A stretch of 64,000 bases of DNA, taken from contig NZ_NESI01000007.1 in the NCBI RefSeq assembly GCF_002778325.1, positions 124,001-188,000 on the forward strand. The letters run 5' to 3'. The position numbers and the translations under genes were made by a program. The stretch is from Limnohabitans sp. B9-3. Its GTDB lineage: Bacteria > Pseudomonadota > Gammaproteobacteria > Burkholderiales > Burkholderiaceae_C. Positions 551 to 41,875 of the stretch are shown piece by piece. The notes beneath the pieces are model-generated. The model did no database searches. It was not told the origin of the DNA and worked only from the letters and a program-made list of their open reading frames with translations. How positions within the stretch are numbered: position 1 is the stretch's first letter; the number at the start of each line of letters is the position of its first letter.

Positions 551-3500
551 ATGAGCACAACCTCCACTAACCTCTCCAGTACAAACCTCATTGCAGGCTT
601 GTCTACAAGAGACTTGTTTGCGTTGGACAACCTGCGGGCTTTTTCCCCAGGTGTGGCCGTGTGCCAAGAAAGTGATGCCCGAACAAGCGGTGGTGCCATC
701 AACGCGCAAGAAATACAAGACGGAACCGTGATAACGATCTCAGTGGCGGGCGGTGGTGCCAGAGTCGGCGACAGATTGCGAGTGGTCATTGACGGCAGCA
801 TTGCTGTCGATCACATCTTGACCGCCAACGACATCAACGGCATCAACGGCAGTTCGGCCTCCAAAGGCATCGCCAGAGTGACCGTGACTGCTGAGGTTTT
901 GTTGGCTTTGTCGCAAGGCGCACATTACGTGACCTCACAAATCTCGTACCTCAGCGGTGCGTTTGCTGGCATGCACAGCAGAGTCAGCTTAGCCAGGGGT
1001 ATTTTTAACATCGACACCGTTGGACCCGATGTGGTGGTCACCTCGTTGGGAGACGACCTCAAAACCGCAGCAGAAGCGACAGACCCCGCTGGCATCATGA
1101 CCGTGCAAAGCGAGGCCAATGCCACCTCCACGGTCACCTTTGTGGGTCAAAACGGGCAAGTCATCAAAAACATCACCCACAACGGCACAGCCAAGCCTGT
1201 CGTGCTCACAGCCGCAGATTTGGTAACTTTGGGTAACGGCCCTGTTGAAGTGACCACCGTCACCAAAGACAAAGCCGGCAACATCATCACTAACCCCGAC
1301 GTGGCAGATGGCGACTTCACGCTCGACACCATCGCTGCCGTTGCCGTGGCAGACGAGGTCAACGCCACAGAAGACGTGGTCAGCACAAGCGCCAACGTGG
1401 GCAGCAACGACACCAACAAAGACGGCTCAGAGACTTACAGCTTGGTCGGCAGCGCCACAGGCCTCTACGGCACGTTGGTGCTCGGTGCCAATGGCGCATA
1501 CACCTACACCCGAACGGCTAACTTAGATGCCATTCAAGCCACCGTCACGGACACCTTCACCTACAAGGTCACGGATGCAGCGGGCAACACCACGCAAAGC
1601 ACGCTCAAAATCAACATGGCCCCCGTCAACGACGCCGCGGTCATCAGTGGCAACGTGGCAGGTGCAGTGACTGAAGCAGGCGGCGTAGCCAACGCGATTG
1701 CTGGCACACCAACTGCTTCGGGCACATTGACCTCAACAGACGTCGACGGCACAGTCAATGCATTCACGGCAGTGGCATCGGGCACAGCCAGCACCAGTGG
1801 CTACGGCACTTACGCCATGACAGCAGGTGGCGTGTGGACCTACACGCTCAACAACGCCAACACGACAGTGCAAGCCTTGGCAGCAGCAGCCACGCTAACC
1901 GACACCTTCACAGTAACGGCAGCCGATGGCACGTCCAAGGTCATCGCCGTCACCATCACGGGAAGCAACGACACCGCCACCATCACCGGCACAGCGACAG
2001 GCGCAGTCACCGAAAACGCCGCCGTTAGCACCGTGGGCGGCACCCTGACCGTCTACGATGTGGACACAGGCCAAGCCGTCTTCCAAACGCCTGCCAGCTT
2101 GCTCGGGACCTACGGTTCATTCACCTTGAACACAACAACAGGTGTGTGGGCCTACACCTTGGACAACACCAAGCCAGCCGTGCAAGCGCTCATCGCTGGG
2201 CAACAAGTGACAGACAGTTTGTTGGTCAAGAGCCAAGACGGCACTGCCACACAAAACTTGCTCGTCACCATCACTGGCATCAACGATGCCACCCTCATCT
2301 CCGGCATCACCACAGGTGATGTGATCGAGGCTGGCGGTGTGGCCAACGCCATTGCAGGCACACCAACTTCCACGGGCACCTTGATCGGCACCGATGTGAA
2401 TGGTCAAGGCCTAGCGTTCACTGCAGTGGCAGCAGGCACCACCAGCACGGGCGGCTACGGCACTTACAGCATGACCGCTGCAGGCGTGTGGGCTTATTCG
2501 CTCAACAACAGCAACACCGCTGTGCAGGCCTTAGCCACGGGTATCACACTCACCGACACCTTCACCGTCAGTGCGGTTGACGGTACGACCAAAGTCATCT
2601 CGGTCACCATCACTGGCACCAACGATGCCGCCATCATTTCTGGTGCCACAACGGGTGCCATCCTCGAAGGCGTTGTCAGCACATCCGGCACCCTCACATC
2701 CACTGACGTGGACGGCACCGCCAACGCGTTCACCGCAGTTGCAGCAGGAACTACCACCCTTGGCGGTTACGGCACTTACGCCTTGTCACCCGCGGGTGCG
2801 TGGACTTACAACCTGAACAACGCAAATGCCACCGTTCAAGCTCTCAGCCAAGGCGCGACATTGAACGATACGTTCACCGTGGCTGCTGCCGATGGCACGC
2901 AGCAAGTGGTGACTGTGACGATCACAGGCACCAACACAGCTGCAGTTATCTCGGGTACAACAACCGGATCAGTCATCGAAGCCGGTGGCGTGGCCAACGC
3001 GATTGCGGGCACGCCCACGGCCACAGGCACACTCACTTCCATAGACGTTGACGGGGTGAACAACGCCTTCACCGCTGTAACAACCAGCACCACCAGCACA
3101 AGCGGCTACGGTGCATTCACCATGACAGCTGCTGGTGTGTGGACCTACACGCTCGACAACAGCAACACCACCGTTCAAGCCTTGGCAGCCTCTGCCACGC
3201 TGACCGACACCTTCACCGTCACATCAGCAGACGGCACCGCCAAAGTGGTGACCGTGACCATCACCGGTGCCAACGACGCACCCGTGGTGGCTGCAGCCAT
3301 CCCTGACCAAATCGCTGTTCTGGGTACTCCCTTCAGCTACACCCTGCCCGCAGGCACCTTCAGCGACCCTGAAGCCACGCTCACCTACACCGTCACACGC
3401 GGTGACGGCACGGCGTTGCCAACCTGGGTGACCTTTAATGCCGCCACACGCACCTTCAGCGGCACACCCACCGACACCATCGACTTCAACATCAAAGTCA

Positions 3501-6500
3501 CTGCCAGCGATGGCACGGCCAGCATCAGCGACGCCTTCTTGGTGGGCATTGCCCCTGTGGCCAGCAGCGCGGCCATCACCAGCAGCACAGGGATTCAAAA
3601 CAACTTCTTGAACGAGGGAGACACGGTCACCGCTACCGTTAACTTTGGTGAGAAGGTCTACATCACCGGCACGCCACAGATCACGCTCAACATGGGTGGC
3701 ACGTTGGTTCAGGCCGACTACGTCAGTGGTTCGGGCACCAATGCCATTGCCTTTAGCTACACCATCTTGGCGGGGCAGACCGATGCCAACGGCATCAGCA
3801 TCAATGCGAACTCGTTGGACTTGAATGGCGGCACGCTTAAGGACGCTGTTGGCAACAACGCCACCCAAAACTTTGCGTTGGTTGCCGACAACATCAGCTA
3901 CAAAGTTGACACCTCGGCACCTGTGGCTGTGGCCGACGTCAACAGTGGCACAGAAGACATCACCACGTTGACGGGCAGCGTGGCCACGAACGACACCAGC
4001 AAAGACGGTAGCGAGACCTACGCGATGGTGGGCAGCGCTATGGGCACCAAAGGCAATTTGGTGCTTAACCCCAACGGCAGCTACACCTACACGCGCACAA
4101 CCAGTGCGGATGAGATTTTGGCCAACCTTGATGAAACCTTCACTTACTCGGTGACGGATGCAGCAGGCAACACCACGCAAAGCACGCTCAAAATTACGCT
4201 GTCGCCGGTCAACGATGCGGCTGTCATCAGCGGAAACGTGGCCGGTGCTGTGACCGAAGCAGGCGGCGTGGCCAACGCCATCGCTGGCGCACCCACTGCT
4301 ACTGGCACCTTAACCTCTGCCGATGTGGACGGCGTACCCAACTCGTTCATCGCAGCGCTCGCAGGCTCAGCGACCGCAGGCGGCTACGGCACCTACGCCA
4401 TGACCGCTGCAGGCGTGTGGACTTACACGCTGAACAACGCCAACACGACCGTGCAAGCTTTGGCCGCAGGTGCAACCCTCAATGACACGTTCACCGTGAA
4501 TGCCGCAGACGGCACGCCCAAGGTCGTCACCGTCACCATCACGGGCGCCAATGACGCTGCTGTCATTGCGGGAACCAGCACAGGTGCCATCACAGAAGAT
4601 GCACCCACCAACACGGCCAGCGGCACACTGACAGTGACCGATGTGGATGCAGGCCAAGCGGCCTTTCAGACGCCTGCCTCACTCGTGGGCACCTACGGCA
4701 CTTACACCTTAGACACCACAACGGGCGCTTGGGGCTACACACTGGACAACACCAAAGACTCGGTGCAAGCCTTGGCCGTTGGCCAGCAAGTGACAGACAC
4801 TTTGGTGGTGAAAAGCCAAGACGGCACGGACACAAAAAACGTGGTGGTCACCATCACAGGCGTCAACGACGCCCCCATTGTCGCCAACCTGATCGCAGAC
4901 ACAGCTGGCCTTGAGGGCACAGCCCTGAGTTACACCGTGCCTGCCAACGCCTTCACCGACGTCGACAACCCCACGCTGTCCTACACCTTCGCTGTGGTTG
5001 ACGCCAACGGCACAGCCCTCGCGACGCAGCCCACTTGGCTCTGCTTCAATGCGGCCACACGCACGTTCTCAGGCACGCCACCTGCGGGCGCCGCAGGCAC
5101 GGTGTTCGTCAAAGTGACGGCCAGCGATGGCAGTCTGAGCGCCAACGACACGTTCAACATCGTGGTCACAGCACCCGACAACATCGCCCCCACCTTGGTC
5201 GGCAGCAACCCGAGTGACAACGGGTTCATGATGGCCGTGGGCAACAACATCATCCTCAACTTCAGCGAAGCTGTTGCCAAAGGCACAGGACTGATTCAGT
5301 TGTTCAAAGCCGATGGCACTTTGGTGCAAAGCTTTGATGCCGCCACCAGTCCATTGGTGACTGGATGGGGGGGGAGCAACCTGACCATCAACCCCACAGC
5401 CAGCTTGCTGGCCAGCACCGGCTACTACATCAAGGTCGCACCCACCGCCGTCAAAGACTTGGCAGGCAACGCTTATGCCGGCATTGCGGATGCGACCACG
5501 TTGAACTTCACCACAGCCGATGCGAGCGGTGCCATTGGGGTGCCTGCCAACGGCATCATGGCTATTGAAGACTTGTCCACCATCGGTGACTTCAACGGCG
5601 ACGGCTACGACGACTTCATTGTGGGCGCAGGCATCAATGGCTCCTCAGAGGGTGCTGCTTTTGTGGTCTATGGCAATGCCAATGGCACCGTGCCTAACTT
5701 GAGTGCCGGCAGCATTGCCGCCAGTGCGGGCTTCAAAATTGTGTCGGGCCAGACGGGCGATTACTTGGGTATCGCGGTCAACAGTGCAGGCGACACCAAC
5801 GGTGACGGCCTCGCCGATTTGGTGGTGACCGCGAAATATGGCGATGCGTCGTCTCGTGAATCGGCTTATGTGGTTTTTGGCAAAAGCAACGCCAGCACCG
5901 TGTTTGCGACAGGGTTGAACGTTGGCACGGGTTTCACAGCCAACATGGGTTACCAGATCAAAATCGATGAAAGCTATTGGGGGCATGCGGTCAGCAATGC
6001 AGGCGATGTCAACGGTGATGGCTTGAGCGATTTGCTAGTGACTTCTGATTTCAGTGCCTCACGGAATGTGTATGTCATTTACGGCAAAACAGGCAATCAA
6101 TCCGTCACCCTGACGTCCTACACCCAGTTCACCCCCGACATGGGCTACAACGTTTTGAGCAGTAACGTGACGGATTTGGGGCAATCTGTCTATGGGGCAG
6201 GCGATGTCAACGGTGATGGTTTGGCTGACTTCATTGTGAGTGCGCCCAACAACGTGACCAATGGGCGTGGCATGGTCTATGTGGTGTATGGCAACAACAC
6301 CGGCACGTCGGTTCAATTGAACGCCACCGATGGCATTGCAGCCAGCCAGGGTTACAGAATTTTGGGTGACACGGGCAACAACAGCTCGTATTCGCGTTTT
6401 GGTTTTGCCGTCTCCAGTGCCGGCGACGTCAACGGCGATGGCCTGGCCGATGTGATGGTCAGCTCACCATATCAACCCGGTACGGTCGGTGGTGCCGTGT

Positions 6501-9500
6501 ATGTCGTGTACGGCAACAGCAGCGGCAACGTGTTGGACATTGACTTGGCCAACAACTCAGGCTTGCTTGCGGCTTCGCGCGGTTTCCAGATTTCCAGTGC
6601 ACTGGTTGGTGACTTCCTCGGACCTTATGGCAAGGACATTGCCAGCGCGGGCGACATCAACGGTGATGGCTTGAGTGACATGATCATCAGTGGTCGTGAC
6701 GACAACGGCAGCACCGCTGCCAGCACCTATGTGGTGTATGGCAACGCCAGCGGCACCAACGTGGCCATCGATGCCAGCGGCAACATCGCGGCCAGCAACG
6801 GCTTCAAGCTCAAAGGCGCCGTAGGTTTTGCCGTGGCCAGTGCGGGCGACATCAACGGCGATGGCTTGAATGACCTGTTGGTATCGGCCAGATTGGGCAG
6901 CACAGCCAGCTACAACGTGGTGCTGGGCGGCACGCAGTGGGTGACGGCTGCGCTGGACGGTGCAGGCGCCTTCGCGGGCACATCGGGCAGCGAAGCCTTG
7001 ATCGGCTCTGCGGGCAACGACACCATCAACGGTGGTGGTGGTGTGGACCGTTTCTTTGCAGGCCGTGGCGACGACACCATCGTGCTGACGTCCAGCGACA
7101 TCGCCAATTTGCAAAACAACAGCACGGGCCAGACCGCCAAGACCACGGTCAGTGGCGGCACAGGTTTTGACACGATTCGCCTGAGCGGTGGGGCCAGCCT
7201 GGACCTGCTCAAGGTCAGCAACGCGGCGGCCATGGGCATTGACGAGACCAGCCGCATCGAAGGCATTGAGCGCATTGACATGGCCACGGATACAGCGGCC
7301 AACGTGCTCAATATTTCAAACAAAGACGTCAACGACATGGCCGGGTTCAACCAAATTCGAATTGGCAGCGCCAGTGCGGACGGCAAGACCTGGATCAACT
7401 TGAACGGCGGCACGGCGCTGGCCGCGACCACGCGTTTTCATCAAATGGTGATCGACGGCGGCAGCAACGACACGGTGGCACTCACGGCCAATGGCGGCGC
7501 ATGGTCCAACGTGGGCGTGGTCAGCAACGGCACGACCCAATACACCGTCTACCAAAACACCGCGACCAACTCGCAGTTGCTGGTGCAGCAGGGTGTGACG
7601 GTGGACACCCAAGCCCCAACCCTGTTGTGGAGCACGCCCGCCGACAACGACTATGTCAACACAGCCAATTTGGGCAACAACATCACGCTGCAGTTCAGCG
7701 AGAACGTGGTCAAGGGCAATGGCTTTATTCAGTTGTGGAACAAGACCACGGGCCAGCCCGTGCAAGCGTTTGACGTGAGCAGCAGCACGCTCGTCACCGG
7801 TTGGGGCACCAGCACCTTGACGATCAACCCCACAGCCAACTTGGCGGCTGCCACCGATTACTTCATCAAGATCAGTGACAACGCCATTCAAGACAGCGCA
7901 GGCTTGGCTTATTCGGGCATGAACAGCGACCTTCAGCTGAACTTCTCCACCCAATCTGCAAACAGCAGCTATGCAGTGCCTTCGTCCTTCACGAGTGCAG
8001 CTTCGACCGACGCGTATTTGCGCTCGGTGGGCACAGCCGGGGACTTCAATGGGGACGGTTACGACGACTTGCTGGTCGGTGTGGCGGGTTCAACGCAGTC
8101 GGGCGTGTATGTCATTTACGGCAATGCACTGGGTGAAGGCTTGAATCTGGACAAAGATCCGGTCATGAGCAACGGTGTGATTGCGGCCGACCAAGGCTTC
8201 AAAATTCATGGCGCTGATTACCTGGGCACATCGGTGTCTGGCATTGGCGACGTCAACGGCGACGGCTATGCCGACGTCTTGATCGGTGCCAGCTCAGACA
8301 GCCAGGGCGGTAGCAACGCCGGTGCGGCTTTTGTGGTGTACGGCAGTGCCGACCCTGCTGCGCTGAACCTCTCCAGTGGCACGATCGCCGCAGCGCGTGG
8401 CTTCAAGGTCACAGCAGGCTCCGCATACGGCACGCTGGGTGACAGCGTCTCTGGCGTGGGCGACGTGAACGGTGACGGTATCGGCGACTTCGTCATGGGC
8501 TATGCAGGTGCCAACGCCGGCGCTGGCAACGGCGCAGCTTATGTGGTGTACGGCAAAACCAATGCCACATCCTTGACCTTCGGCACTGATGGCAGCATTG
8601 CCGCGACAGATGGTTTCATGCTCACGGGGGCTGTGAGCGAGAATGCCGGCTTCTCGGTGTCGGGCGCCGGTGACGTGAACGGCGACGGCCTGGCCGATGT
8701 GATCGTCAGTGCCAACGGGGCATTGACGAATGCGGATGGCGCAACGTATGTGATTTTTGGCGGCGCAACGGGCGGCGACATGAGCGCGCTGGTTGCCGCA
8801 GGCAAAGGGTTCAAGATCGCGGGTTTAACCAACAGCACCGGCTACCAGTTGGGCACCAGCGTGTCCAGCGCCGGCGATGTCAACGGTGACGGTTATGCCG
8901 ACTTGATCGTGGCCACCGACACGGACCAAAGCTACACCGCTGCCTATGTTGTTTACGGCGGCGCTGCCCCCACCAATGTGAGTCTGGCAGCCAGCACCAT
9001 TGCCGCAGCAAAGGGCTTCCGCATTTTGGGCAACACCGCCAATGGCGCAGGTTTGGGCCAGGTCTCAGGTGCGGGCGACCTCAACGGCGACGGCTTTGCC
9101 GATGTGATCGTGGGTTCCACCAACGGTTCGTCTTATGTGGTCTACGGCAAAGCCACGGGTGCTGAAGTCAGTGTGAGCACGGGCATCATTGCCGCATCAC
9201 AAGGCTTCAAGCTCACTTACTCGACCAACACCACCTCAACCACCGCCAAAGCGGTGTCGTTTGCGGGTGACTTTGATAGCGATGGCTTGACCGACTTGGT
9301 GATTGCCGATGCTACCGATTTTGGAAATTCTCAAACCTACAAAATCGTCTTCGGTGGCACGCAGTGGCTGACCACACCGGTCATCGGCAATGGCGCTGTC
9401 ACAGGCACTGCAGCGTCTGAGGCCATCCTCGGCTCGACCGCCAACGACACCCTGACAGGCGGCGGCGGTGTGGACCGTTTCTTTGCGGGTAAGGGCGATG

Positions 9501-12500
9501 ACACCATCGTGCTCTCCTTAAGCGATGCAGCCAACTTGGCTGACAACACCGTTGCAGCCGCGAAAGCTTCTGTGAACGGTGGCTCGGGGTTTGACACGAT
9601 CCGCATGAGCGGTGGTGCCAGCTTGAACTTGAGCACCATCAGCAACGCAGGGGCCATGGGCTTGGAAGAAAACAGCCGCATCGAAAGCATCGAACGCATT
9701 GACTTGGCCAACGACACCACCGCCAACACCCTGATGCTGGCGGCCAGGGACGTCAAAGACATGGCGGGCTTCAACATCATCCACACCGGCTCGGTCAGTG
9801 CCGACGGCAATACTTGGAAGAACGTGACCGGTGCGGCGTTGAGCGACATCACCAAGTTCCACCAGCTGGTGGTGGACGGTGGCAGCAACGACGCTTTGAC
9901 TTTTGCCGCCGACACCGGTTCATGGACCAACGTCGGTACTGCCACCCAAACTGTGGCCGCTACCAACAGCACCACCACTTACACCGTCTACCAAAACAAC
10001 GCCACCAACTCCCAGGTGTTGGTGCAAGCGGGTGTCGGCGTGACCACGCCCCCCGTGCTGGTGTCCAGCACTCCGAGCGACAACGGCTACATGCTGACCT
10101 TGACCAACAACATCACGATGACGTTTGACCAAGTGGTGCAGAAGGGCACGGGCACCATCGGCATTTACAAGACTTCGGACAACACACTGTTAGAAACCGC
10201 CTACGACGTGGTCAGCAGCGGCTTGGTCACCGGTTGGGGCACGAACACCCTGACCATCAACCCGACCGCCAACTTGACCGCGAGCACGGGTTATTACGTC
10301 AAGGTGTCCAACACCGCTGTGAAAAACGCAGCGGGCGCGACCTTTACAGGCATCAACGATGCCACCACCCTCAACTTCAGCACGGCAGCGGCCGATGGGA
10401 GTGTGTCGGCTGGCACAAGCTATGTCGGTGCAGGCGGCAGTAATTTGGGCTTCACGGTTTCGGGCGCGGGTGACGTGAACGGCGACGGCTTTGGCGACTA
10501 CCTCGTAGGTGCCCACGAAACACACAGTGCCTTTGTGGTGTATGGCAATGCCAGCGGCTTGGGCATGGATTTGGCGGGCGGGACCATCCCGGCTTCTAAA
10601 GGCTTCAAAATTTCGGGAGGCTATTCAACGGGCTACTCGGTGTCGGGTGTGGGCGACGTCAACGGTGATGGCTATGACGACGTGTTGGTGGGCATGAGGA
10701 GCTCCACCTTCGTACCCACGGCCTACGTGGTGTATGGCAACTCGATTGGAACCAATGTGTCGATCTACCCCAGTAATGAGATCCCATCCAGCTTGGGTTT
10801 CACAATTTCTGGCGCTCCCGGTTCGTATGTGGGTTACTCGGTATCGGGGGCGGGTGACGTCAACGGCGACGGCTTGGCCGATTTGGTCGTGGGCGGCCCG
10901 GGCTCAGGCGGCGTGCCCGTGATGTATGTGGTGTATGGCCGCGCAGGCAGTGCGGCTGTCAACCTGTCTTCGGCCACCATTGCTGCGAGCGACGGCTTCA
11001 AAGTGACCAGTCGAGTCGATAGCGGATTTGGCAGCATTGTGTCTGGTGCAGGTGATGTGAACGGTGACGGCTTGGCTGACGTGATCGTGGGTGCCAACAT
11101 CATCGGCAGTGCGTATGTGATTTATGGCAACTCAACAGGCACGGCTGTTGACGTCATGTCTGGCTCAATCGCTGCAGGCAGTGGCTTCAGGATCGTGACG
11201 GCGCAAGGGGCTAATTCTTTTGGGCTCAGTGTCTCTGGCGCAGGCGATGTCAACGGTGATGGCTTGGCCGACGTGATGGTGGGTGACAGAGTCAACAACA
11301 GCGTTTATGTGGTGTATGGCAACACCATGGGGGCCACGGTGAACATCAACAGCACAGGCGGCATTGCCGCCAGCAGTGGTTTCCGCATTGCAGGCACGTC
11401 AGACAGCCTGGGTTTCACGACGTCAGCTGTGGGGGATGTGAACGGGGATGGCCTGGCCGACGTGTTGGTGGGGCCCTACCAGAACGTGGGTTATGCGTAT
11501 GTGGTGTACGGCAATGCCAGCGGCAGCACGGTGAACATCTCCAGCAATGGCAGCATTAACGCGAGCAACGGTTTCAAGATCACAGGTGCCAGCACCGGTT
11601 ACTTTGCCTATTCGCTGTCCGGTGCAGGCGATATCAACGGCGACGGCTTGAGTGACCTCATCATGGGGTCATTGGGCAATGGTTACAGCCTCGTCCTCGG
11701 CGGCACGCAGTGGGTGACGTCTGCCGTGACCGGCACTGGCACAGTCACGGGCGGTACGGGGGCCGAAGCCATCATCGGCTCGGCCGCCGCTGACACCTTG
11801 ACCGGTGGCGGCGGTGTGGACCGTTTCTTTGCTGGCCAGGGCAACGACACCATTGTATTGACGGCCAGCGACGTGACCAACCTCGCCAACAACACGACGG
11901 GCCAAACGGCCAAGGCCACGGTGAGTGGCGGTGGTGGCTTTGACACGATCCGCCTGAGTGGCGGTGCGGGCTTGAACCTGAGCAGCATCAGCAACAGTGG
12001 CGGTATGGGCTTGGAAGAAAACAGCCGCATCGAAAGCATCGAGCGCATCGACCTGGCCACCGACACCACCGCCAACGCGCTGGTGCTGGCCGCCAAAGAC
12101 GTGAAAGACATGGCGGGCTTCAACCTGTTCCGCACCGGCAGCGCCAGTGCAGACGGCAAGACTTGGACCAACGTGAATGGCGGCACCGCCCTGAGCGCGA
12201 TCACAGCATTCCACCAACTGCAAGTGGACGGTGGCAACACCGACAGCTTGGTGCTCAACACGCATTTGGGTGTGTGGACCAACGCGGGCACCGTGAACAA
12301 CGGCACCAGCAATTACACGGTGTACCAAAACGATGCCACCGACACGCAGGTCTTGGTGCAAGCGGGCGTGAGCGTGGTGAATGCACCTGTCATGTTGGCA
12401 TCGAGTAACCCAGTGGCCAACGGCTATCTGATAGCGCTGGGCAACAACCTCTCGCTGACCTTTGACCAAGCCGTGCTGCAAGGCACGGGCACCATTCAGC

Positions 12501-15307
12501 TGTTCAACAGCGCAACGGGCGCTTTGGTAGAAGGCTTTGATGTGGCCAGCAGCTCGCTGGTGACAGGCTGGGGCACCAGCACGCTGACCATCAACCCGAC
12601 CGCAGATTTGACGACCAGCACCAGCTACCACCTGAAAGTGACCGACAACGCGGTGCAAAACGCGGTGGGCAGCACGTTTGCGGGCATGGCCGATGCGACG
12701 ACGTACCGTTTCTCAACGGCAGCAGCCGATGGCAGTGTGGCTGCGAGCGGTATCGCCGTTCAAGCCAACTCGGGCACTGTGGGCGTCACCAGCGCTGGTG
12801 ACGTTAATGGGGATGGCTTTGACGATGACCTGGTCAACGTGGGTAGCACAAACACTGCTTATGTCATTTACGGCAATGCCACAGGTACACCGGCTGACCT
12901 GAGTGCCGGCACGGTTGCCGCCAGCAAGGGTTTCAAAATCAGCACGTACGCAGCCATGTCTGCTTCGGGCGGCGGTGATTTCAACGGCGATGGCTTGGAC
13001 GATTTGCTGGTGACATCGAGCGGCAACACCTTTGTGGTTTACGGCAGCAGCAATGCCGCGTACACCGGTGTGAACCTCAGCAGCGCAACGCCCAGCATCG
13101 CATCGAGTTTGGGCTACCAAATTGCAACGGGTGGTCAGGTCGTATCGGGTGCAGGCGATGTGAACGGCGATGGTTTTGCCGATTTCATCACTGGAGGCGC
13201 CAACGGCAACATCAAAGTCATCTTTGGCGCAGCCAGTGGCGTGACCCCGTCGGTGACGGGTTTCAACATCACGTCGCAGTCACACAGCGTCCTTGGTTAC
13301 ATCTATTCTTTATCCGGTGCCGGTGATGTGAACGGTGATGGCTATGCAGACATCATTGTGGGTAATTACCCAAGCGCCAGAGCTTTTGTCATTTACGGCA
13401 ATTCAGCAATGAATCAATCGCTGAACTTGAACACCAATAATCCCGCTCCCAGTGCAGGTTTCACCATTTCCTATGCTTCTGGATCCAACGAAAACTTGGG
13501 TCATGACGTGTCGAGTGCAGGGGACGTGAACGGTGATGGATTGGCTGATCTTTTGGTCACTACAAGCAACTCTGTTACTACAAGTTCTGTTTATGTTGTT
13601 TATGGCAATTCCAGTGGAACCAATGTCAGCATCACGCCTGGTTCGATCGCACCCAGCCATGGTTTTGTCATTTCAGGTCCTACGGGGAGTTGGTTTGGTA
13701 GCCGTGCCTCCAGTGCGGGCGATGTCAACGGCGATGGTTTGGCCGATGTGATTGTTCAGGGCCGCTCGGGTGATCCAGGTTTTGCTTATGTGGTGTATGG
13801 CAATGCAAGCGGAACATCGGTGAGTGTGACCAGTGGCTCGATTGCAGCAAGTCAAGGTTTCAAAGTGACAGGATCCGCACTCGGTCAGTTTGCAACCACC
13901 GTGTCCAATGCCGGCGACATCAACGGCGATGGTTTGGCCGATCTCATTGTGGGGGGCAACGGCGCGGGTGCGACGTACAGCGTCATCCTCGGCGGCACGC
14001 AGTGGGTGAGCAACGCGGTGTCTGGCACCGGCACAGTCACAGGCACCAGCGCAGCCGAAGCCATCATCGGCTCGACCGCCGCCGACACCTTGACGGGCGG
14101 CGGTGGTGTGGACCGTTTCTTTGCAGGCATGGGCAACGACACCATCGTGCTCGCGGGCACAGATGTGACCAACCTCTCGGCCGCCACAGGTGCTACACGC
14201 GGCACCATCCACGGTGGCGGCGGCTTTGACACTCTGCAGGTGTCGGCAGCCGGCGTGAACCTGAACCTGACTACCGTCAGCAACGCAGGCGCGATGGGCC
14301 TGGAAGAGAACAGCCGCATCGAAAGCATCGAGCGCATTGACCTGGGCGCCGACGCCGTCGCCAACACGCTGACGCTGACGGCGCGCGATGTGAAAGACAT
14401 GGCCGGTTTCAACCTAATCCGCACCGGCTCGGTGAGTGCAGATGGCAATATGTGGACGGGCTCGGCGCTGGGCACGACCACCAAGTTCCACCAGCTGGTG
14501 GTGAACGGCACAGCCTCCGACACGCTGGTGTTGTCGCCAGATGCAGGGTTCTGGACCAACGCTGGCACGGCCAACAACGGCACCGACAACTACACCGTGT
14601 ATCAAAACGCGGGCACCAACAGCCAGGTGCTGGTCAAGTCAGGCGTTGTGGTGACCAACAACGACTCGGTCGCCCCCGTGGTGCTCGACTTGAACCGCGA
14701 TGGCCAGCTCAGCTACGGCCAAGTGACGATGGACGTGAACGGCGATGGCCAACTCGACCACACCGCTTGGGCCGGTGCACAAGACGGCGTGTTGGTGTGG
14801 GACAAATACCAAGACGGCGTCGTGCACGACAACAGCCAATACGCCTTCACGCAATACGGTGGCAAGACCGACCTGCAAGGCTTGGCTGCCGCGTTTGACA
14901 CCAACCACGATGGCGAATTCGACGCCCGCGATGCCAAGTTCTCGCAGTTCTCGGTCTGGCAAGACGCCAACCAAAACGGCGTGAGCGACGTGGGCGAGGT
15001 GCACACCTTGGCTGAGGCGGGCATTGCCTCTGTCCACCTCACCAGCGACGGCGTGGCCCGTAACCCTGCCGATGGCGTACACGAAGCAGGGCGCACCACG
15101 GCCACGACCACCGACGGTCAAAACGTGTTGGTGGCGGATGCCGCGTTTGAGTTCCACACGGCTGCGGCGGCCAACGTGTTGCGCTTTGACGACGTGTTGC
15201 CTGCCCCCGATTGGCAAGCGCACGACATCACCAGCGCGCATGTGTCGTACTCGCTCAACAGCACCAGCGCTTTGACCGACGAGTTGATGCACAGACTCGC
15301 CGTTTAA
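551..15307 (+). CDS. giant T1SS adhesin with four FG-GAP propeller modules (adhesin 1)
   Basis: This is a 4918-residue secreted or surface protein without a Sec signal, as expected for type I secretion. Residues 1-155 form a domain shared with adhesin 2 and related to the Ig-like repeat of adhesin 3. Residues ~262-910 and ~1123-1437 hold seven VCBS repeats (ISGxxxGxVxEAGG-type) and two cadherin-like units. He_PIG-type Ig domains lie at ~910-1003 and ~1438-1545, with another Ig-like domain between. Residues 1546-4706 are four tandem modules, each with an Ig-like lead, seven DxNGDG repeats, a GGTQW motif, one RTX pair (GGGGVDRFFAG) and an ERIDL...YTVYQN terminal module. The C-terminus has Asp-rich EF-hand-like loops and a tail nearly identical to that of adhesin 2. 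The ATG is preceded by CTAGG ten bases upstream. Probable exporter: the TolC/LapB/LapC genes at 38-43 kb (inference). Ligand unknown. Confidence 0.9.
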   Translation: MSTTSTNLSSTNLIAGLSTRDLFALDNLRAFSPGVAVCQESDARTSGGAINAQEIQDGTVITISVAGGGARVGDRLRVVIDGSIAVDHILTANDINGINGSSASKGIARVTVTAEVLLALSQGAHYVTSQISYLSGAFAGMHSRVSLARGIFNIDTVGPDVVVTSLGDDLKTAAEATDPAGIMTVQSEANATSTVTFVGQNGQVIKNITHNGTAKPVVLTAADLVTLGNGPVEVTTVTKDKAGNIITNPDVADGDFTLDTIAAVAVADEVNATEDVVSTSANVGSNDTNKDGSETYSLVGSATGLYGTLVLGANGAYTYTRTANLDAIQATVTDTFTYKVTDAAGNTTQSTLKINMAPVNDAAVISGNVAGAVTEAGGVANAIAGTPTASGTLTSTDVDGTVNAFTAVASGTASTSGYGTYAMTAGGVWTYTLNNANTTVQALAAAATLTDTFTVTAADGTSKVIAVTITGSNDTATITGTATGAVTENAAVSTVGGTLTVYDVDTGQAVFQTPASLLGTYGSFTLNTTTGVWAYTLDNTKPAVQALIAGQQVTDSLLVKSQDGTATQNLLVTITGINDATLISGITTGDVIEAGGVANAIAGTPTSTGTLIGTDVNGQGLAFTAVAAGTTSTGGYGTYSMTAAGVWAYSLNNSNTAVQALATGITLTDTFTVSAVDGTTKVISVTITGTNDAAIISGATTGAILEGVVSTSGTLTSTDVDGTANAFTAVAAGTTTLGGYGTYALSPAGAWTYNLNNANATVQALSQGATLNDTFTVAAADGTQQVVTVTITGTNTAAVISGTTTGSVIEAGGVANAIAGTPTATGTLTSIDVDGVNNAFTAVTTSTTSTSGYGAFTMTAAGVWTYTLDNSNTTVQALAASATLTDTFTVTSADGTAKVVTVTITGANDAPVVAAAIPDQIAVLGTPFSYTLPAGTFSDPEATLTYTVTRGDGTALPTWVTFNAATRTFSGTPTDTIDFNIKVTASDGTASISDAFLVGIAPVASSAAITSSTGIQNNFLNEGDTVTATVNFGEKVYITGTPQITLNMGGTLVQADYVSGSGTNAIAFSYTILAGQTDANGISINANSLDLNGGTLKDAVGNNATQNFALVADNISYKVDTSAPVAVADVNSGTEDITTLTGSVATNDTSKDGSETYAMVGSAMGTKGNLVLNPNGSYTYTRTTSADEILANLDETFTYSVTDAAGNTTQSTLKITLSPVNDAAVISGNVAGAVTEAGGVANAIAGAPTATGTLTSADVDGVPNSFIAALAGSATAGGYGTYAMTAAGVWTYTLNNANTTVQALAAGATLNDTFTVNAADGTPKVVTVTITGANDAAVIAGTSTGAITEDAPTNTASGTLTVTDVDAGQAAFQTPASLVGTYGTYTLDTTTGAWGYTLDNTKDSVQALAVGQQVTDTLVVKSQDGTDTKNVVVTITGVNDAPIVANLIADTAGLEGTALSYTVPANAFTDVDNPTLSYTFAVVDANGTALATQPTWLCFNAATRTFSGTPPAGAAGTVFVKVTASDGSLSANDTFNIVVTAPDNIAPTLVGSNPSDNGFMMAVGNNIILNFSEAVAKGTGLIQLFKADGTLVQSFDAATSPLVTGWGGSNLTINPTASLLASTGYYIKVAPTAVKDLAGNAYAGIADATTLNFTTADASGAIGVPANGIMAIEDLSTIGDFNGDGYDDFIVGAGINGSSEGAAFVVYGNANGTVPNLSAGSIAASAGFKIVSGQTGDYLGIAVNSAGDTNGDGLADLVVTAKYGDASSRESAYVVFGKSNASTVFATGLNVGTGFTANMGYQIKIDESYWGHAVSNAGDVNGDGLSDLLVTSDFSASRNVYVIYGKTGNQSVTLTSYTQFTPDMGYNVLSSNVTDLGQSVYGAGDVNGDGLADFIVSAPNNVTNGRGMVYVVYGNNTGTSVQLNATDGIAASQGYRILGDTGNNSSYSRFGFAVSSAGDVNGDGLADVMVSSPYQPGTVGGAVYVVYGNSSGNVLDIDLANNSGLLAASRGFQISSALVGDFLGPYGKDIASAGDINGDGLSDMIISGRDDNGSTAASTYVVYGNASGTNVAIDASGNIAASNGFKLKGAVGFAVASAGDINGDGLNDLLVSARLGSTASYNVVLGGTQWVTAALDGAGAFAGTSGSEALIGSAGNDTINGGGGVDRFFAGRGDDTIVLTSSDIANLQNNSTGQTAKTTVSGGTGFDTIRLSGGASLDLLKVSNAAAMGIDETSRIEGIERIDMATDTAANVLNISNKDVNDMAGFNQIRIGSASADGKTWINLNGGTALAATTRFHQMVIDGGSNDTVALTANGGAWSNVGVVSNGTTQYTVYQNTATNSQLLVQQGVTVDTQAPTLLWSTPADNDYVNTANLGNNITLQFSENVVKGNGFIQLWNKTTGQPVQAFDVSSSTLVTGWGTSTLTINPTANLAAATDYFIKISDNAIQDSAGLAYSGMNSDLQLNFSTQSANSSYAVPSSFTSAASTDAYLRSVGTAGDFNGDGYDDLLVGVAGSTQSGVYVIYGNALGEGLNLDKDPVMSNGVIAADQGFKIHGADYLGTSVSGIGDVNGDGYADVLIGASSDSQGGSNAGAAFVVYGSADPAALNLSSGTIAAARGFKVTAGSAYGTLGDSVSGVGDVNGDGIGDFVMGYAGANAGAGNGAAYVVYGKTNATSLTFGTDGSIAATDGFMLTGAVSENAGFSVSGAGDVNGDGLADVIVSANGALTNADGATYVIFGGATGGDMSALVAAGKGFKIAGLTNSTGYQLGTSVSSAGDVNGDGYADLIVATDTDQSYTAAYVVYGGAAPTNVSLAASTIAAAKGFRILGNTANGAGLGQVSGAGDLNGDGFADVIVGSTNGSSYVVYGKATGAEVSVSTGIIAASQGFKLTYSTNTTSTTAKAVSFAGDFDSDGLTDLVIADATDFGNSQTYKIVFGGTQWLTTPVIGNGAVTGTAASEAILGSTANDTLTGGGGVDRFFAGKGDDTIVLSLSDAANLADNTVAAAKASVNGGSGFDTIRMSGGASLNLSTISNAGAMGLEENSRIESIERIDLANDTTANTLMLAARDVKDMAGFNIIHTGSVSADGNTWKNVTGAALSDITKFHQLVVDGGSNDALTFAADTGSWTNVGTATQTVAATNSTTTYTVYQNNATNSQVLVQAGVGVTTPPVLVSSTPSDNGYMLTLTNNITMTFDQVVQKGTGTIGIYKTSDNTLLETAYDVVSSGLVTGWGTNTLTINPTANLTASTGYYVKVSNTAVKNAAGATFTGINDATTLNFSTAAADGSVSAGTSYVGAGGSNLGFTVSGAGDVNGDGFGDYLVGAHETHSAFVVYGNASGLGMDLAGGTIPASKGFKISGGYSTGYSVSGVGDVNGDGYDDVLVGMRSSTFVPTAYVVYGNSIGTNVSIYPSNEIPSSLGFTISGAPGSYVGYSVSGAGDVNGDGLADLVVGGPGSGGVPVMYVVYGRAGSAAVNLSSATIAASDGFKVTSRVDSGFGSIVSGAGDVNGDGLADVIVGANIIGSAYVIYGNSTGTAVDVMSGSIAAGSGFRIVTAQGANSFGLSVSGAGDVNGDGLADVMVGDRVNNSVYVVYGNTMGATVNINSTGGIAASSGFRIAGTSDSLGFTTSAVGDVNGDGLADVLVGPYQNVGYAYVVYGNASGSTVNISSNGSINASNGFKITGASTGYFAYSLSGAGDINGDGLSDLIMGSLGNGYSLVLGGTQWVTSAVTGTGTVTGGTGAEAIIGSAAADTLTGGGGVDRFFAGQGNDTIVLTASDVTNLANNTTGQTAKATVSGGGGFDTIRLSGGAGLNLSSISNSGGMGLEENSRIESIERIDLATDTTANALVLAAKDVKDMAGFNLFRTGSASADGKTWTNVNGGTALSAITAFHQLQVDGGNTDSLVLNTHLGVWTNAGTVNNGTSNYTVYQNDATDTQVLVQAGVSVVNAPVMLASSNPVANGYLIALGNNLSLTFDQAVLQGTGTIQLFNSATGALVEGFDVASSSLVTGWGTSTLTINPTADLTTSTSYHLKVTDNAVQNAVGSTFAGMADATTYRFSTAAADGSVAASGIAVQANSGTVGVTSAGDVNGDGFDDDLVNVGSTNTAYVIYGNATGTPADLSAGTVAASKGFKISTYAAMSASGGGDFNGDGLDDLLVTSSGNTFVVYGSSNAAYTGVNLSSATPSIASSLGYQIATGGQVVSGAGDVNGDGFADFITGGANGNIKVIFGAASGVTPSVTGFNITSQSHSVLGYIYSLSGAGDVNGDGYADIIVGNYPSARAFVIYGNSAMNQSLNLNTNNPAPSAGFTISYASGSNENLGHDVSSAGDVNGDGLADLLVTTSNSVTTSSVYVVYGNSSGTNVSITPGSIAPSHGFVISGPTGSWFGSRASSAGDVNGDGLADVIVQGRSGDPGFAYVVYGNASGTSVSVTSGSIAASQGFKVTGSALGQFATTVSNAGDINGDGLADLIVGGNGAGATYSVILGGTQWVSNAVSGTGTVTGTSAAEAIIGSTAADTLTGGGGVDRFFAGMGNDTIVLAGTDVTNLSAATGATRGTIHGGGGFDTLQVSAAGVNLNLTTVSNAGAMGLEENSRIESIERIDLGADAVANTLTLTARDVKDMAGFNLIRTGSVSADGNMWTGSALGTTTKFHQLVVNGTASDTLVLSPDAGFWTNAGTANNGTDNYTVYQNAGTNSQVLVKSGVVVTNNDSVAPVVLDLNRDGQLSYGQVTMDVNGDGQLDHTAWAGAQDGVLVWDKYQDGVVHDNSQYAFTQYGGKTDLQGLAAAFDTNHDGEFDARDAKFSQFSVWQDANQNGVSDVGEVHTLAEAGIASVHLTSDGVARNPADGVHEAGRTTATTTDGQNVLVADAAFEFHTAAAANVLRFDDVLPAPDWQAHDITSAHVSYSLNSTSALTDELMHRLAV
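1338..5185 (+). repeat. VCBS / cadherin-like / He_PIG repeat region of adhesin 1
   Basis: The coded order is: cadherin-like unit (VADEVNATEDV), five VCBS repeats, a He_PIG domain at 3278-3560 (PTWVTFNAATRTFSGTP), a bacterial Ig-like unit at 3561-3919, a second cadherin-like unit (VADVNSGTEDI) from 3920, two more VCBS repeats and a second He_PIG domain at 4864-5185. VCBS repeats recur at about 100 residues with GYGTY and WTYTLNN motifs. These are stalk-type beta-sandwich repeats common in long adhesins. Confidence 0.8.
5186..7612 (+). repeat. adhesin 1 propeller module 1
   Basis: An Ig-like lead (NPSDNGF...LNFSEAV...VTGWG) is followed by seven repeats with the calcium-loop core GDxNGDGxxD. 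I count seven cores here, the first GDFNGDGYDD and the last GDINGDGLND. Next come GGTQW, one RTX pair (GNDTINGGGGVDRFFAGRG) and a terminal module (IERIDM...DMAGFN...YTVYQN...LLVQ). Module length is 2427 bases. Confidence 0.8.
7613..10048 (+). repeat. adhesin 1 propeller module 2
   Basis: The layout matches module 1 over 2436 bases. I count seven FG-GAP cores; the last is GDFDSDGLTD, slightly degenerate in the calcium loop. GGTQW is near 9353, followed by the RTX pair, IERIDL and YTVYQN. Confidence 0.8.
10049..12382 (+). repeat. adhesin 1 propeller module 3
   Basis: The layout is the same over 2334 bases. Seven FG-GAP cores run from GDVNGDGFGD to GDINGDGLSD. GGTQW, the RTX pair and the IERIDL/YTVYQN terminal module follow. 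Confidence 0.8.
12383..14668 (+). repeat. adhesin 1 propeller module 4
   Basis: The layout is the same over 2286 bases. Seven FG-GAP cores run from GDVNGDGFDD to GDINGDGLAD. GGTQW, the RTX pair and the terminal module follow, and the protein then continues into the EF-hand-like C-terminal region. Confidence 0.8.
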
Positions 15308-38388: not shown

Positions 38389-39693
38389 ATGAACACCAAA
38401 CGTAACTTACTGACACAAGCGGCTGTGACCATGGCGCTGTGTGTTTGGGGCGCAAGCGCCCAAGCGCAGTCGTTCACTGACGTGGTGCAAAACGCGCTCA
38501 CCATCTACCCCAGTTTGATCTCTGCCAAGGCCAAGACCGATGCGGCGCGCTCAGACATTGAGCGCGCACGCGCCGCCCATTTCCCGCAGCTCAGCATGGG
38601 CTTGGCACGCAACAGTTATGGCTCAGGCAAGTTGCCTGAAACCAGCAGCGTGAAGAGCAACGCCGCCACGCCGTCTGCGCGTTTGAACCTCTGGTCGGGT
38701 GGCCGTATTGAGGCCGATGCCCGTCGCTCGGAGGCATTGACCGAGGGCAGCGAGTTTCAAGAGGCGGTCACGCGCGATGACGTGGCACAGTTGGCCGCAG
38801 AGGCTTACATCAACTGGGCGCGCACGTTAGAGATGGCCGATTTGGCCAAGAGAAACTTGGAGTCGCACCAAGTCACGCTCAGCGACATTCGCAAAATTGT
38901 GGATGTCGACGCGGGTCGTCGTATCGACCTAGAGCAAGCGCAGGTGCGCCTAGACAACGCCAAGCTCATCAAGCTGCAGCGCGATACCGATTTAGCCCAA
39001 GCCCGCCAGCGTTTGAGCCGGTTTTGGACCGAACGATTGCCCACCACCCCTTCGGGTTTGACCGAGTCGCTGCGCAACGGTGGGCGTTTGTACCAAGTGC
39101 CCAGAAGCATTGACGAATTGCAAAACGGAGGCTTAGAAGACTTGCCGGCCATTGCCCAGCAACGCGCTCAGGTGCAAGCCGCACAAGCTGCGGTCGACAT
39201 GGCCAAGGGCTTGTATTGGCCGACGGTGGACTTGAGCGTGACACGCCAACCCAACCCTTTCAACGTGAACGCCAGGGCAGAGCCACAAATGGACACCTTC
39301 ACCCAAATACAGCTGAACATGCCGCTGTACAACGGTGGCTCCACGTCGGCCCAAATCCAAACCTCGGTGAGTCAGTTGCAAGCGGCGCAGTTCGCTTTAG
39401 AAGAAGCCCGTTTGCTGGCCCGTGAAAAAGCCAGCTTGGCTTGGCACGAGTGGGCCTCTGCCCGCGACCGCGCCACGCAAGGCGCCGAACAAGCCCGCGT
39501 AGGCGACAAGGTGGTCGATGGTTACCGCCAGCAGTTCCGTTTGGCGCGTCGTCAGTTGCTGGACTTGTTGAACATTCAAGCCGAAGCCTTTGGCTACCAA
39601 AGCGCCGCCACCTCGGCCTATTACGACGAGCAGATCGCACGCACCCGTTTGTTGGCGTCTATGGGTGACTTGGCCCGACGCTTCGCCCCTTAA
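38389..39693 (+). CDS. TolC/LapE-type outer-membrane efflux protein
   Basis: A 434-residue TolC-family protein with a clear signal peptide (MNTKRNLLTQAAVTMALCVW..ASAQA, cleaved before QS). Two outer-membrane efflux protein repeats follow, recognisable by FTDVVQNALTIYPSL with the adjacent SAKAKTDAARSDIERARAAHFPQL region, and by the second-half N-MPLYNGGSTSAQI strand and long helices. It forms the outer-membrane channel-tunnel of a T1SS. It is the first gene of a tolC-lapB-lapC-type operon with gaps of 17 and 11 bases. The probable cargo is adhesin 4 and the other three giant adhesins. Confidence 0.92.
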   Translation: MNTKRNLLTQAAVTMALCVWGASAQAQSFTDVVQNALTIYPSLISAKAKTDAARSDIERARAAHFPQLSMGLARNSYGSGKLPETSSVKSNAATPSARLNLWSGGRIEADARRSEALTEGSEFQEAVTRDDVAQLAAEAYINWARTLEMADLAKRNLESHQVTLSDIRKIVDVDAGRRIDLEQAQVRLDNAKLIKLQRDTDLAQARQRLSRFWTERLPTTPSGLTESLRNGGRLYQVPRSIDELQNGGLEDLPAIAQQRAQVQAAQAAVDMAKGLYWPTVDLSVTRQPNPFNVNARAEPQMDTFTQIQLNMPLYNGGSTSAQIQTSVSQLQAAQFALEEARLLAREKASLAWHEWASARDRATQGAEQARVGDKVVDGYRQQFRLARRQLLDLLNIQAEAFGYQSAATSAYYDEQIARTRLLASMGDLARRFAP

Positions 39694-39710
39694 TTTCTAG
39701 TTAGACAGTT

Positions 39711-41864
39711 ATGCGTACTCCAGAAAAATCTGACGGCTCATCCGACACCTTGTTGGTGTGTTTGGCCATGGTGGCCAAGCATTTGGGCCACTCCGTGCAT
39801 GTGCCTGCCATGCGCCAAGGCTTTGCCTTGGACGACCAAGGTCGCATTCCCCTTGAGGCCTACCCCGACTTGGCGCACCAGCACGGTTTGATCGCCGGTT
39901 GGAGCCGCAAGCCCTTGGCGGACATTCCGAGCTATGTGTTGCCCGTGGTGGTGTCGTTGGTGGACGGTCGTTCGTGCGTGCTGCGCTCACACGACGGCAA
40001 GATGGCCACGGTGTGGTGGGCCGAGGGCGGCATGCAAGACGAGCAAGTCAATTTGCAACAGTTGCAAGGCTTGGCCCGTGACGAGGTGTTGGTGGTCAAG
40101 CTGCAGCCCAAGCGCAGCGACCAAACCTTGGCACCCATGCAAGGCGCCGCCTTCAACTGGTTCTGGGGCACGCTGTGGCGCTTCCGACATTTCTATGTGG
40201 AGTCGATGGTGGCCACGGTGGTGGCCAACGTGCTGACCTTGGCCAGTGTGTTTTTCACGATGAACGTGTACGACCGCGTGGTGCCTACACAGGCCTACGC
40301 CTCGCTGTGGACGCTGGCCATTGGAACGGCCATTGCCATCGTGCTGGAGTTCATCATGCGTTGGCTCAAAGCGCGATTGGTGGACTTGGGCGGCAAGAAG
40401 GCCGACTTGGCCATCAACGCCACGCTGTTGCGCGAGGTGATGGGCATTCGCCTTGAGAACCGCCCGCAGTCGGTGGGTATTTTTGCCAGCTCCATGCGCG
40501 ACTTTGAATCGCTGCGCGACTTCTTCTCGTCGGCCTCCTTGGTCGTGTTGGCCGATATGCCATTTGTGCTCTTGTTCTTGGGCATGATCGCCATGGTGGG
40601 TGGGCATTTGGTGTGGATTCCTGCGCTGTCCATGCCCGTGTTGATCGCACAAGGTTTGTGGGCACAAAGGCCACTCATGAAAGCTATGCGCGCCAACATG
40701 AAAGAGTCGGGCGACAAGCAAAGCGTGTTGGTCGAGTCGGTGCTGAATTTGGAGCTGCTCAAGGCCCACAACGCCGAGAGCTATTTGCAACGCCGTTGGG
40801 AAGACTCCAACAAAGCGGGCTCAGATTCGTACAAAGAAATTCGCTCCTTGACCAACTGGATCATGGGCTTCACCACCGCTGTGTCACAGCTCGTGACGGT
40901 GGCGATGGTGGTGGTGGGTGTGTACATGATTCACGCCAACATGCTGACGCTGGGCGGCTTGATCGCTTGCGTCATCTTGGCCGGTCGCGCCATTTCGCCG
41001 CTGAGCAGCGTGATGTCGCTGGCCGCGCGCTACCAACAAGCCGTGTCGTCATTGGAAACTTTGGATGGTTTGATGAAGCGTCCCCGCGACCGTGACATCA
41101 AGCGCACCTATGTCACGCCCGAGCACATTGCCGGCGGCTTGGAAGCGCAAGCCTTGGAGTTTGGTTACCCCGGTGAGCACAACATTCCGGTCATCAAGCG
41201 CTTGTCGCTCAAGGTGGCGCCAGGTCAGCGCTTGGCGCTCTTGGGGCGCGTGGGCAGCGGCAAGAGCACCTTGCTGCGCTTGATGGCGGGTTTGTACACA
41301 CCACTCGCTGGCAGTGTGCGTTTGGACGGCGTGGAGATGCAACAGATCGAGCCTGCCGAAGTGCGCAGCTGCATGGGCTACGTGGGCCAAGATCCACAAC
41401 TGTTCATGGGCACCTTGCGTGAAAACATGGTGTTGTCGGAGGCTTGGATCAGCGATGCCAAGATCATTGAGGTCTTGAAGTCTTTGAATATGTACGACTT
41501 GGTGGCCTCTCACCCCCGCGGATTGGACATGCCCATCACCGAAGCTGGTGGCGGTTTGTCAGGCGGTCAACGTCAGTTGTTGTCCATCGCCCGCATGATG
41601 CTGCGCGATCCGCAGCTGGTGTTCATGGACGAGCCAACGGCAAATATGGACCAAAACACCGAAGCCCACGTCATCGCTGTGCTGGGTGCGTGGCTGAAGG
41701 GCCGCACCTTGCTGATGTCCACCCACCGTCCACAGCTGTTGGAGTGGGCCGACTTGATCGGTGTGATCGAAGCTGGCCAATGCGTGGCCATCGGCCCCAA
41801 ACAAGAAATGATTGACAAGTTGTCGCGAGGCATCGACGTGAAAACGGCAGCCGCGCAGCGCTAA
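39711..41864 (+). CDS. T1SS ABC transporter, LapB/LssB type
   Basis: A 717-residue inner-membrane exporter. Residues ~1-130 form a C39-peptidase-like domain. A Cys sits in LLVCLAMVAKHLG, but the catalytic His context of true C39 peptidases is not evident, as in the non-cleaving domains of RTX exporters. An ABC transmembrane domain spans ~145-440. The nucleotide-binding domain has Walker A GRVGSGKST (~511), signature LSGGQRQ (~612) and Walker B LVFMDEP (~635). The lack of a double-Gly peptidase fits substrates exported with an uncleaved C-terminal signal. It lies between the TolC-like and HlyD-like genes. The assignment to LapB type is by overall organisation; the HlyB type is the alternative. 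Confidence 0.93.
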   Translation: MRTPEKSDGSSDTLLVCLAMVAKHLGHSVHVPAMRQGFALDDQGRIPLEAYPDLAHQHGLIAGWSRKPLADIPSYVLPVVVSLVDGRSCVLRSHDGKMATVWWAEGGMQDEQVNLQQLQGLARDEVLVVKLQPKRSDQTLAPMQGAAFNWFWGTLWRFRHFYVESMVATVVANVLTLASVFFTMNVYDRVVPTQAYASLWTLAIGTAIAIVLEFIMRWLKARLVDLGGKKADLAINATLLREVMGIRLENRPQSVGIFASSMRDFESLRDFFSSASLVVLADMPFVLLFLGMIAMVGGHLVWIPALSMPVLIAQGLWAQRPLMKAMRANMKESGDKQSVLVESVLNLELLKAHNAESYLQRRWEDSNKAGSDSYKEIRSLTNWIMGFTTAVSQLVTVAMVVVGVYMIHANMLTLGGLIACVILAGRAISPLSSVMSLAARYQQAVSSLETLDGLMKRPRDRDIKRTYVTPEHIAGGLEAQALEFGYPGEHNIPVIKRLSLKVAPGQRLALLGRVGSGKSTLLRLMAGLYTPLAGSVRLDGVEMQQIEPAEVRSCMGYVGQDPQLFMGTLRENMVLSEAWISDAKIIEVLKSLNMYDLVASHPRGLDMPITEAGGGLSGGQRQLLSIARMMLRDPQLVFMDEPTANMDQNTEAHVIAVLGAWLKGRTLLMSTHRPQLLEWADLIGVIEAGQCVAIGPKQEMIDKLSRGIDVKTAAAQR

Positions 41865-41875
41865 GGAGTTCTGAC

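Follow-up and report, generated by a model that had tools for sequence, protein, structure and literature searches.

The 64,000-nucleotide window analysed here comes from Limnohabitans sp. B9-3, probably a freshwater bacterium (contig NZ_NESI01000007.1, positions 124,001 to 188,000; numbered C21 among the contigs of the 3.4 Mb genome). It contains a giant gene whose product, P0001, we read as four different integrin-type propeller heads on a common cassette of an Ig-like domain and a repeats-in-toxin (RTX) linker, a chain that is probably exported by type I secretion. We give this reading a probability of roughly 0.7. It builds on features read from the sequence, namely repeat counts, domain order, divergence of the heads, differences in module number between relatives and conflicting trees of the single domains. 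Coordinates are collected in Table 1.

A scan for the calcium motif Dx[DN]xDG detected 28 cores in P0001, all between residues 1680 and 4456 and one in every blade (28/28). The cores form four groups of exactly seven with a spacing of 56-76 residues; 27 of them have the form DxNGDG, and the core of module 2 blade 7 is DFDSDG. Because a looser core pattern gave 30 matches over the whole protein (close ones merged) versus a mean of 0.43 and a maximum of 2 in 200 shuffles of the same protein, the four groups are not due to chance. Pfam recognises FG-GAP (PF01839) in P0001 with E 3.8e-112, with 21 stretches passing individually, and finds Big_5 and HemolysinCabind (RTX) in four stretches each. A sequence-only reading had proposed four modules of 2286-2436 bases with seven cores each, separated by conserved linker and RTX modules. 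Indeed, the computed lengths are 2427, 2436, 2334 and 2286, each module has seven cores, and the linkers are 56-69% identical to one another. The 28 calcium loops it had proposed are all present as motifs, which suggest calcium binding. Past its RTX stretch, the linker of module 1 matches nothing in the Pfam copy searched. In precomputed annotation, many relatives carry PF26745, a family that may correspond to the linker.

The predicted structures of modules 1, 3 and 4 contain integrin-like seven-bladed propellers. For modules 1 and 3 the whole predicted propeller aligns to solved integrins, and the best Foldseek match of a whole module to an integrin has E 7e-11. In these two models blade 7 has three strands of its own and strand or bridge residues precede blade 1, and the ring is predicted to close with the N-terminal strand as the fourth strand of blade 7; the module 4 model shows the same strands. 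No non-integrin family appears among the structural matches listed, which excludes nothing, and these lists scarcely test the linker and Big_5 parts. The propeller reading, which had been put forward for all four modules, is well supported by the models for modules 1, 3 and 4, and would extend to module 2, which has the same number of cores.

The number seven is not a peculiarity of this gene. Two protein searches furnished 447 and 2763 matches, and the best 120 of each gave 231 relatives. These contain 740 groups of at least four cores, and exactly seven cores are found in 628 of them, so that a striking count in one protein becomes a general pattern: among these relatives, FG-GAP units on large chains come overwhelmingly in sevens, the number of the closed integrin propeller. 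The other groups comprise 76 of four to six cores, 15 of eight, 12 of fourteen, two of 21, one of 28 and six of other sizes. Among the groups of eight, nine show a gap of 85-110 residues between a core at the edge and the next one (P0059 twice, P0071, P0104, P0121 twice, P0157 three times), and two (P0215) have an additional core within a blade. The remaining four (P0079, P0100, P0184 twice) have an even spacing of 55-72 residues and may be true eight-bladed rings. Seven is thus a strong bias, not a law. The groups of four to six cores are located within 110 residues of a protein terminus in 28 of the 76 cases, which may reflect truncation, and do not in 48. At least four groups of seven occur in 61 of the 231 relatives, and ten in one protein. 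Whole-protein scores add over copies and the query itself has sevens, which biases the list toward many-copy chains, so 61/231 is not a population frequency. Still, together with two tandem copies on one chain described earlier (PMC3192720, in the part available), it led us to reject the suggestion that the architecture is unusual. Within the genus, the module 3 propeller was matched in 12 of 60 other genomes (E <=0.001), many of them incomplete; in the family, the module 1 linker was matched in 26 of 100 genomes (own included), in many weakly and over the RTX part. All eight loci of relatives in named genomes belong to Limnohabitans. Judged by these matches, this kind of architecture occurs widely, with a patchy distribution in the genus. 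A literature search found no paper that combines FG-GAP, RTX, adhesin and type I secretion, and among the matches listed, as far as titles and the starts of abstracts go, no title names chains of at least three such propellers.

The four heads had been taken as identical, an idea we rejected: the propellers of P0001 share 42-51% identity, the Big_5 domains 50-58%. Three relatives, P0006, P0010 and P0013 (from Limnohabitans sp. TS-CS-82), have two seven-core groups each. They match propeller 1 with 92, 85 and 67% identity and propeller 2 with 90, 72 and 72%, and propellers 3 and 4 with 43-47% at best. The near-identical relative P0004 (4918 aa) has all four, with 95, 96, 100 and 100%. From these matches we conclude that, at the sequence level, every head is its own line and that head number varies between relatives.

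Where the heads vary was analysed by structural element in six comparisons, of modules 1 and 2 with the three relatives that carry two modules (strand 3 is unlabelled in blade 7 of modules 1, 3 and 4). The calcium loop is the most conserved element (16/420 mismatches, 4%), and strands 1 to 4 give 34/294, 21/168, 17/225 and 36/177. The 2-3 loop (138/390) and the 4-1 loop (103/252) reach 35-41%, versus 20% in the 3-4 loop (148/726), so that variation is concentrated on one face. Strand alternation puts the 2-3 and 4-1 loops on the far side from the calcium (1-2) loops, and in integrins this is the ligand-facing side. One could see the propellers as calcium-folded beads without specific binding, which make the chain stiffer or longer, or whose folding outside the cell drives export. 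The conservation of the calcium loops would suit such a spacer, as would the stiffening of RTX adhesins by calcium in the linkers between their repeats (PMC7493085, in the part available). We nevertheless consider it unlikely, since a spacer needs neither variation on one face nor heads that keep their identity between relatives.

The heads also look as if they had moved between genes. The genome holds the Big_5-propeller-linker unit in four proteins with 10 core groups of seven cores each: P0001, its sister P0002, a frame on contig C3 and a 4597-codon frame with two propeller modules on contig C12. The propeller of P0001 module 3 is 59-60% identical to propellers of another gene, whereas propellers 3 and 4 reach at most 51% with any other P0001 propeller. 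At the DNA level, P0001 residues 3692-4045 match C3 residues 12146-12495 with 86.4% over 1067 columns, a stretch that spans blade 7, the linker and the beginning of the following Big_5. Trees were built from 31 modules, eight from this genome, with the C12 pair omitted, and 23 from ten of the 231 relatives, first with 14 of the 31 rows after a motif filter dropped 17, then with the full set of 31 (29 for Big_5). In the propeller trees P0001 module 4 groups with C3 module 1 (support 99 with 14 rows, 100 with 31), and its grouping with C3 module 3 is rejected (p 6e-8 and 1e-5). The best Big_5 tree pairs it with C3 module 3 (support 89 with 14 rows, 61 with 29), and the Big_5 pairing with C3 module 1 is rejected (p 0.022 with 14 rows, 0.011 with 29). 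These conflicting trees make a good case that heads were reassorted between the two giant genes: the C3 gene may have been either the donor or the recipient of modules 3 and 4. Alternatively, the two-module relatives may have lost two modules. When blade positions are compared across all modules of P0001, P0002 and C3 (eight in total), the same-position blade is the best match in 176 of 392 comparisons, where chance would give 56. For blade 7 the best match is blade 7 in 28/28 module pairs; inner blades often match other positions best, and descent as a whole propeller is therefore clear for some pairs only.

For export, the window offers a type I secretion cluster. Its ABC protein scores 786.9 bits against a cut-off of 693.1 and its HlyD adaptor lies above the curated cut-off, while the TolC-like outer-membrane protein stays below that of the TolC model. 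We infer the pairing with P0001 from the neighbourhood. Additionally, P0001 and P0002 have the same 46-residue C-terminal end (89%), a candidate type I secretion signal.

Several observations weigh against this picture. Foldseek superimposes the whole module loosely on integrins (rmsd 6.9-18.9; in the 50 rows listed, no TM-score by target exceeds 0.61), and a two-propeller model has a predicted TM-score (pTM) of 0.61, which leaves the relative placement of propellers uncertain. Loops vary faster than other parts in most proteins, so the face contrast depends on the 2-3 and 4-1 loops versus the 3-4 loop. The tested clade pairs were chosen with the identities already seen, and the tree p values are therefore guides. 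Support for the Big_5 pairing of P0001 module 4 with C3 module 3 falls to 61 with 29 rows. For the linker, the 14-row test rejects the clade with C3 module 1 (p 4e-4) and the 31-row test does not (p 0.197); the clade with C3 module 3 passes the 14-row test (p 0.358). The linker thus does not decide the partner of module 4. One may ask whether the modules arose by duplication within the gene alone and the mosaic signal reflects uneven rates, in line with the linker relationships that the tests leave unseparated and the weaker Big_5 support with more rows. We regard this as very improbable: propellers 3 and 4 are nearer to propellers of another gene (59-60 and 69%) than to any other P0001 propeller, three relatives have modules 1 and 2 only, and the propeller clade with C3 module 3 is rejected although the Big_5 domains agree to 82%.

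Export and anchoring add to these counterpoints. The secretion cluster lies 23 kb downstream of P0001, past the giant genes P0002 and P0003. No retention domain is among the Pfam and NCBIfam matches of P0001 (no dedicated retention profile was run), and LapG (PF06035) gave 0 matches in the own genome, with a control positive in 1 of 14 genomes (Caulobacter); Lap-type surface attachment is therefore not supported. This fits a released matrix protein, whose propellers would bind the exopolysaccharide of the cell itself so that several heads glue its own biofilm. A precedent is Bap1/RbmC of Vibrio cholerae, a secreted biofilm adhesin whose eight-bladed propeller, closed in Velcro fashion, binds Vibrio polysaccharide (VPS) directly (PMC10102183, in the part available). 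We hold such a cross-linker to be possible, yet the heads differ at about half their residues, more than one would expect of binders of one polysaccharide, and the Bap1 propeller has eight blades, not seven.

With four distinct integrin-type heads as the preferred reading, P0001 would leave the cell through a type I exporter. Extracellular calcium would then occupy the Dx[DN]xDG loops and the RTX turns, locking the propellers, each of which the N-terminal strand would close by completing blade 7. The variable face of each head, with its 2-3 and 4-1 loops, would point towards a partner, either glycan or protein, that sits on another cell or in the matrix; binding of carbohydrate or protein is suggested by analogy with propellers of secreted proteins such as Bap1/RbmC. 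The conserved linkers would serve as recombination sites that allow adhesin genes to gain, lose and exchange heads. Going further, we tentatively propose that the unit is an exchangeable receptor cassette, in which homologous recombination at linkers swaps, adds or loses heads among the giant adhesin genes of one genome and the non-calcium face diversifies. If true, these bacteria would own a combinatorial set of integrin-like heads. The gene offers a concrete case for testing head exchange through conserved linkers in closely related isolates.

Table 1. Features of the P0001 locus and related copies (window positions unless a contig is named; each module begins with its Big_5 domain).
Feature	Position	Strand	Basis or remark
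P0001, giant protein with four modules	551..15307	+	single open reading frame, 4918 aa
N-terminal stalk: cadherin-like, Big_9 and VCBS_repeat domains; no anchor recognised	551..5185	+	Pfam; NCBIfam TIGR01965, nine stretches
Module 1 Big_5 Ig-like domain	5186..5515	+	Pfam
Module 1 propeller, seven FG-GAP cores	5516..6925	+	core count and predicted structure
Module 1 linker: one RTX (HemolysinCabind) stretch and 'DMAGF' region	6926..7612	+	
Module 2 Big_5	7613..7969	+	Pfam
Module 2 propeller, seven cores	7970..9346	+	core count (sequence)
Module 2 linker	9347..10048	+	
Module 3 Big_5	10049..10399	+	Pfam
Module 3 propeller, seven cores	10400..11707	+	core count and predicted structure
Module 3 linker	11708..12382	+	89% identity to linker of C3 module 2
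Module 4 Big_5	12383..12727	+	nearest: Big_5 of C3 module 3 (82%)
Module 4 propeller, seven cores	12728..13993	+	nearest: propeller of C3 module 1 (69%)
Module 4 linker	13994..14668	+	
C-terminal region after the modules, EF-hand-like motifs (by eye), 46-residue end common with P0002	14669..15307	+	
P0002, sister protein, 1731 aa	15414..20609	+	one module ~16551-18929: Big_5-like start, seven cores, linker
Type I secretion genes: TolC-like outer-membrane protein, LssB-type ABC transporter, HlyD adaptor	38389..43078	+	candidate exporter
Open frame, 13,784 codons	contig C3 69062-110416	-	three seven-core propeller modules near end

Further observations concern the neighbourhood and the other copies. 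A promoter scan of positions 1-1200 gave 0 sites (0.6 expected). A near-identical 30-base stretch lies upstream of the giant genes P0001 and P0003 (310-339 and 20768-20797), has no further copy in the genome even when 3 mismatches are allowed, and is possibly a shared promoter or regulator site. P0003 (4053 aa, 21031-33192), which was left out of the NCBIfam scan, has an array of about 14 copies of a 333-base repeat and Big_13 Ig-like domains; its N-terminus is unlike that of P0001 and looks like a BapA-type prefix. A 925-aa frame at 35461-38238, between OmpA-like and secretion genes, has no Pfam match at E 1e-5 and a weak match, below cut-off, to a BapA/Bap/LapF adhesin model; it overlaps a low-GC stretch (0.436 at 36001-38000). 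On contig C12 (392432-409580) the two-propeller frame is directly preceded by another LssB-like ABC transporter, which with 602.5 bits stays below the cut-off; the two are possibly a second exporter-substrate pair. In the protein of this frame the blades within one propeller are much more alike (mean pairwise scores 224 and 175 versus 66-124 elsewhere), a pattern for which a recent amplification is a precedent (PMC9218822, in the part available). Another genome of the genus (G140) has a frame of 13,554 codons.

Compared with known systems, P0001 resembles LapA/BapA-class RTX adhesins in its giant, repetitive and acidic chain (403 D+E versus 148 K+R), its Ig-like and VCBS domains, its RTX stretches and the type I secretion cluster nearby. 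It differs from them in that no retention module was recognised, the genome has no LapG, and propeller heads stand in series. Bap1/RbmC are much smaller than P0001 and, by their description, to which the likeness is limited, have one eight-bladed propeller with beta-prism domains, where P0001 is seven-bladed. In the parts of the sources available, a five-bladed propeller occurs in another adhesin (PMC12153261), and a Limnohabitans/Daphnia study yields adhesin-transport genes only (PMC6971282). Unlike an integrin alpha subunit, P0001 lacks the K.GFF.R tail motif and a transmembrane helix (maximum hydropathy 1.57 in a 19-residue window), and it has four heads per chain with the motif in 7/7 blades, whereas integrins have three or four calcium sites (PMC3192720, in the part available). 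Closest are the bacterial integrin-type propellers of Chouhan et al. 2011 (same source), with seven FG-GAP repeats, a calcium motif per blade, closure of blade 7 by the N-terminal strand and, in that part of the text, no transmembrane helix. P0001 is like them in its seven repeats, its motif in every blade, its tandem copies and the missing helix, and goes beyond the two copies reported there with four divergent heads, each with its own Big_5 domain and RTX linker.
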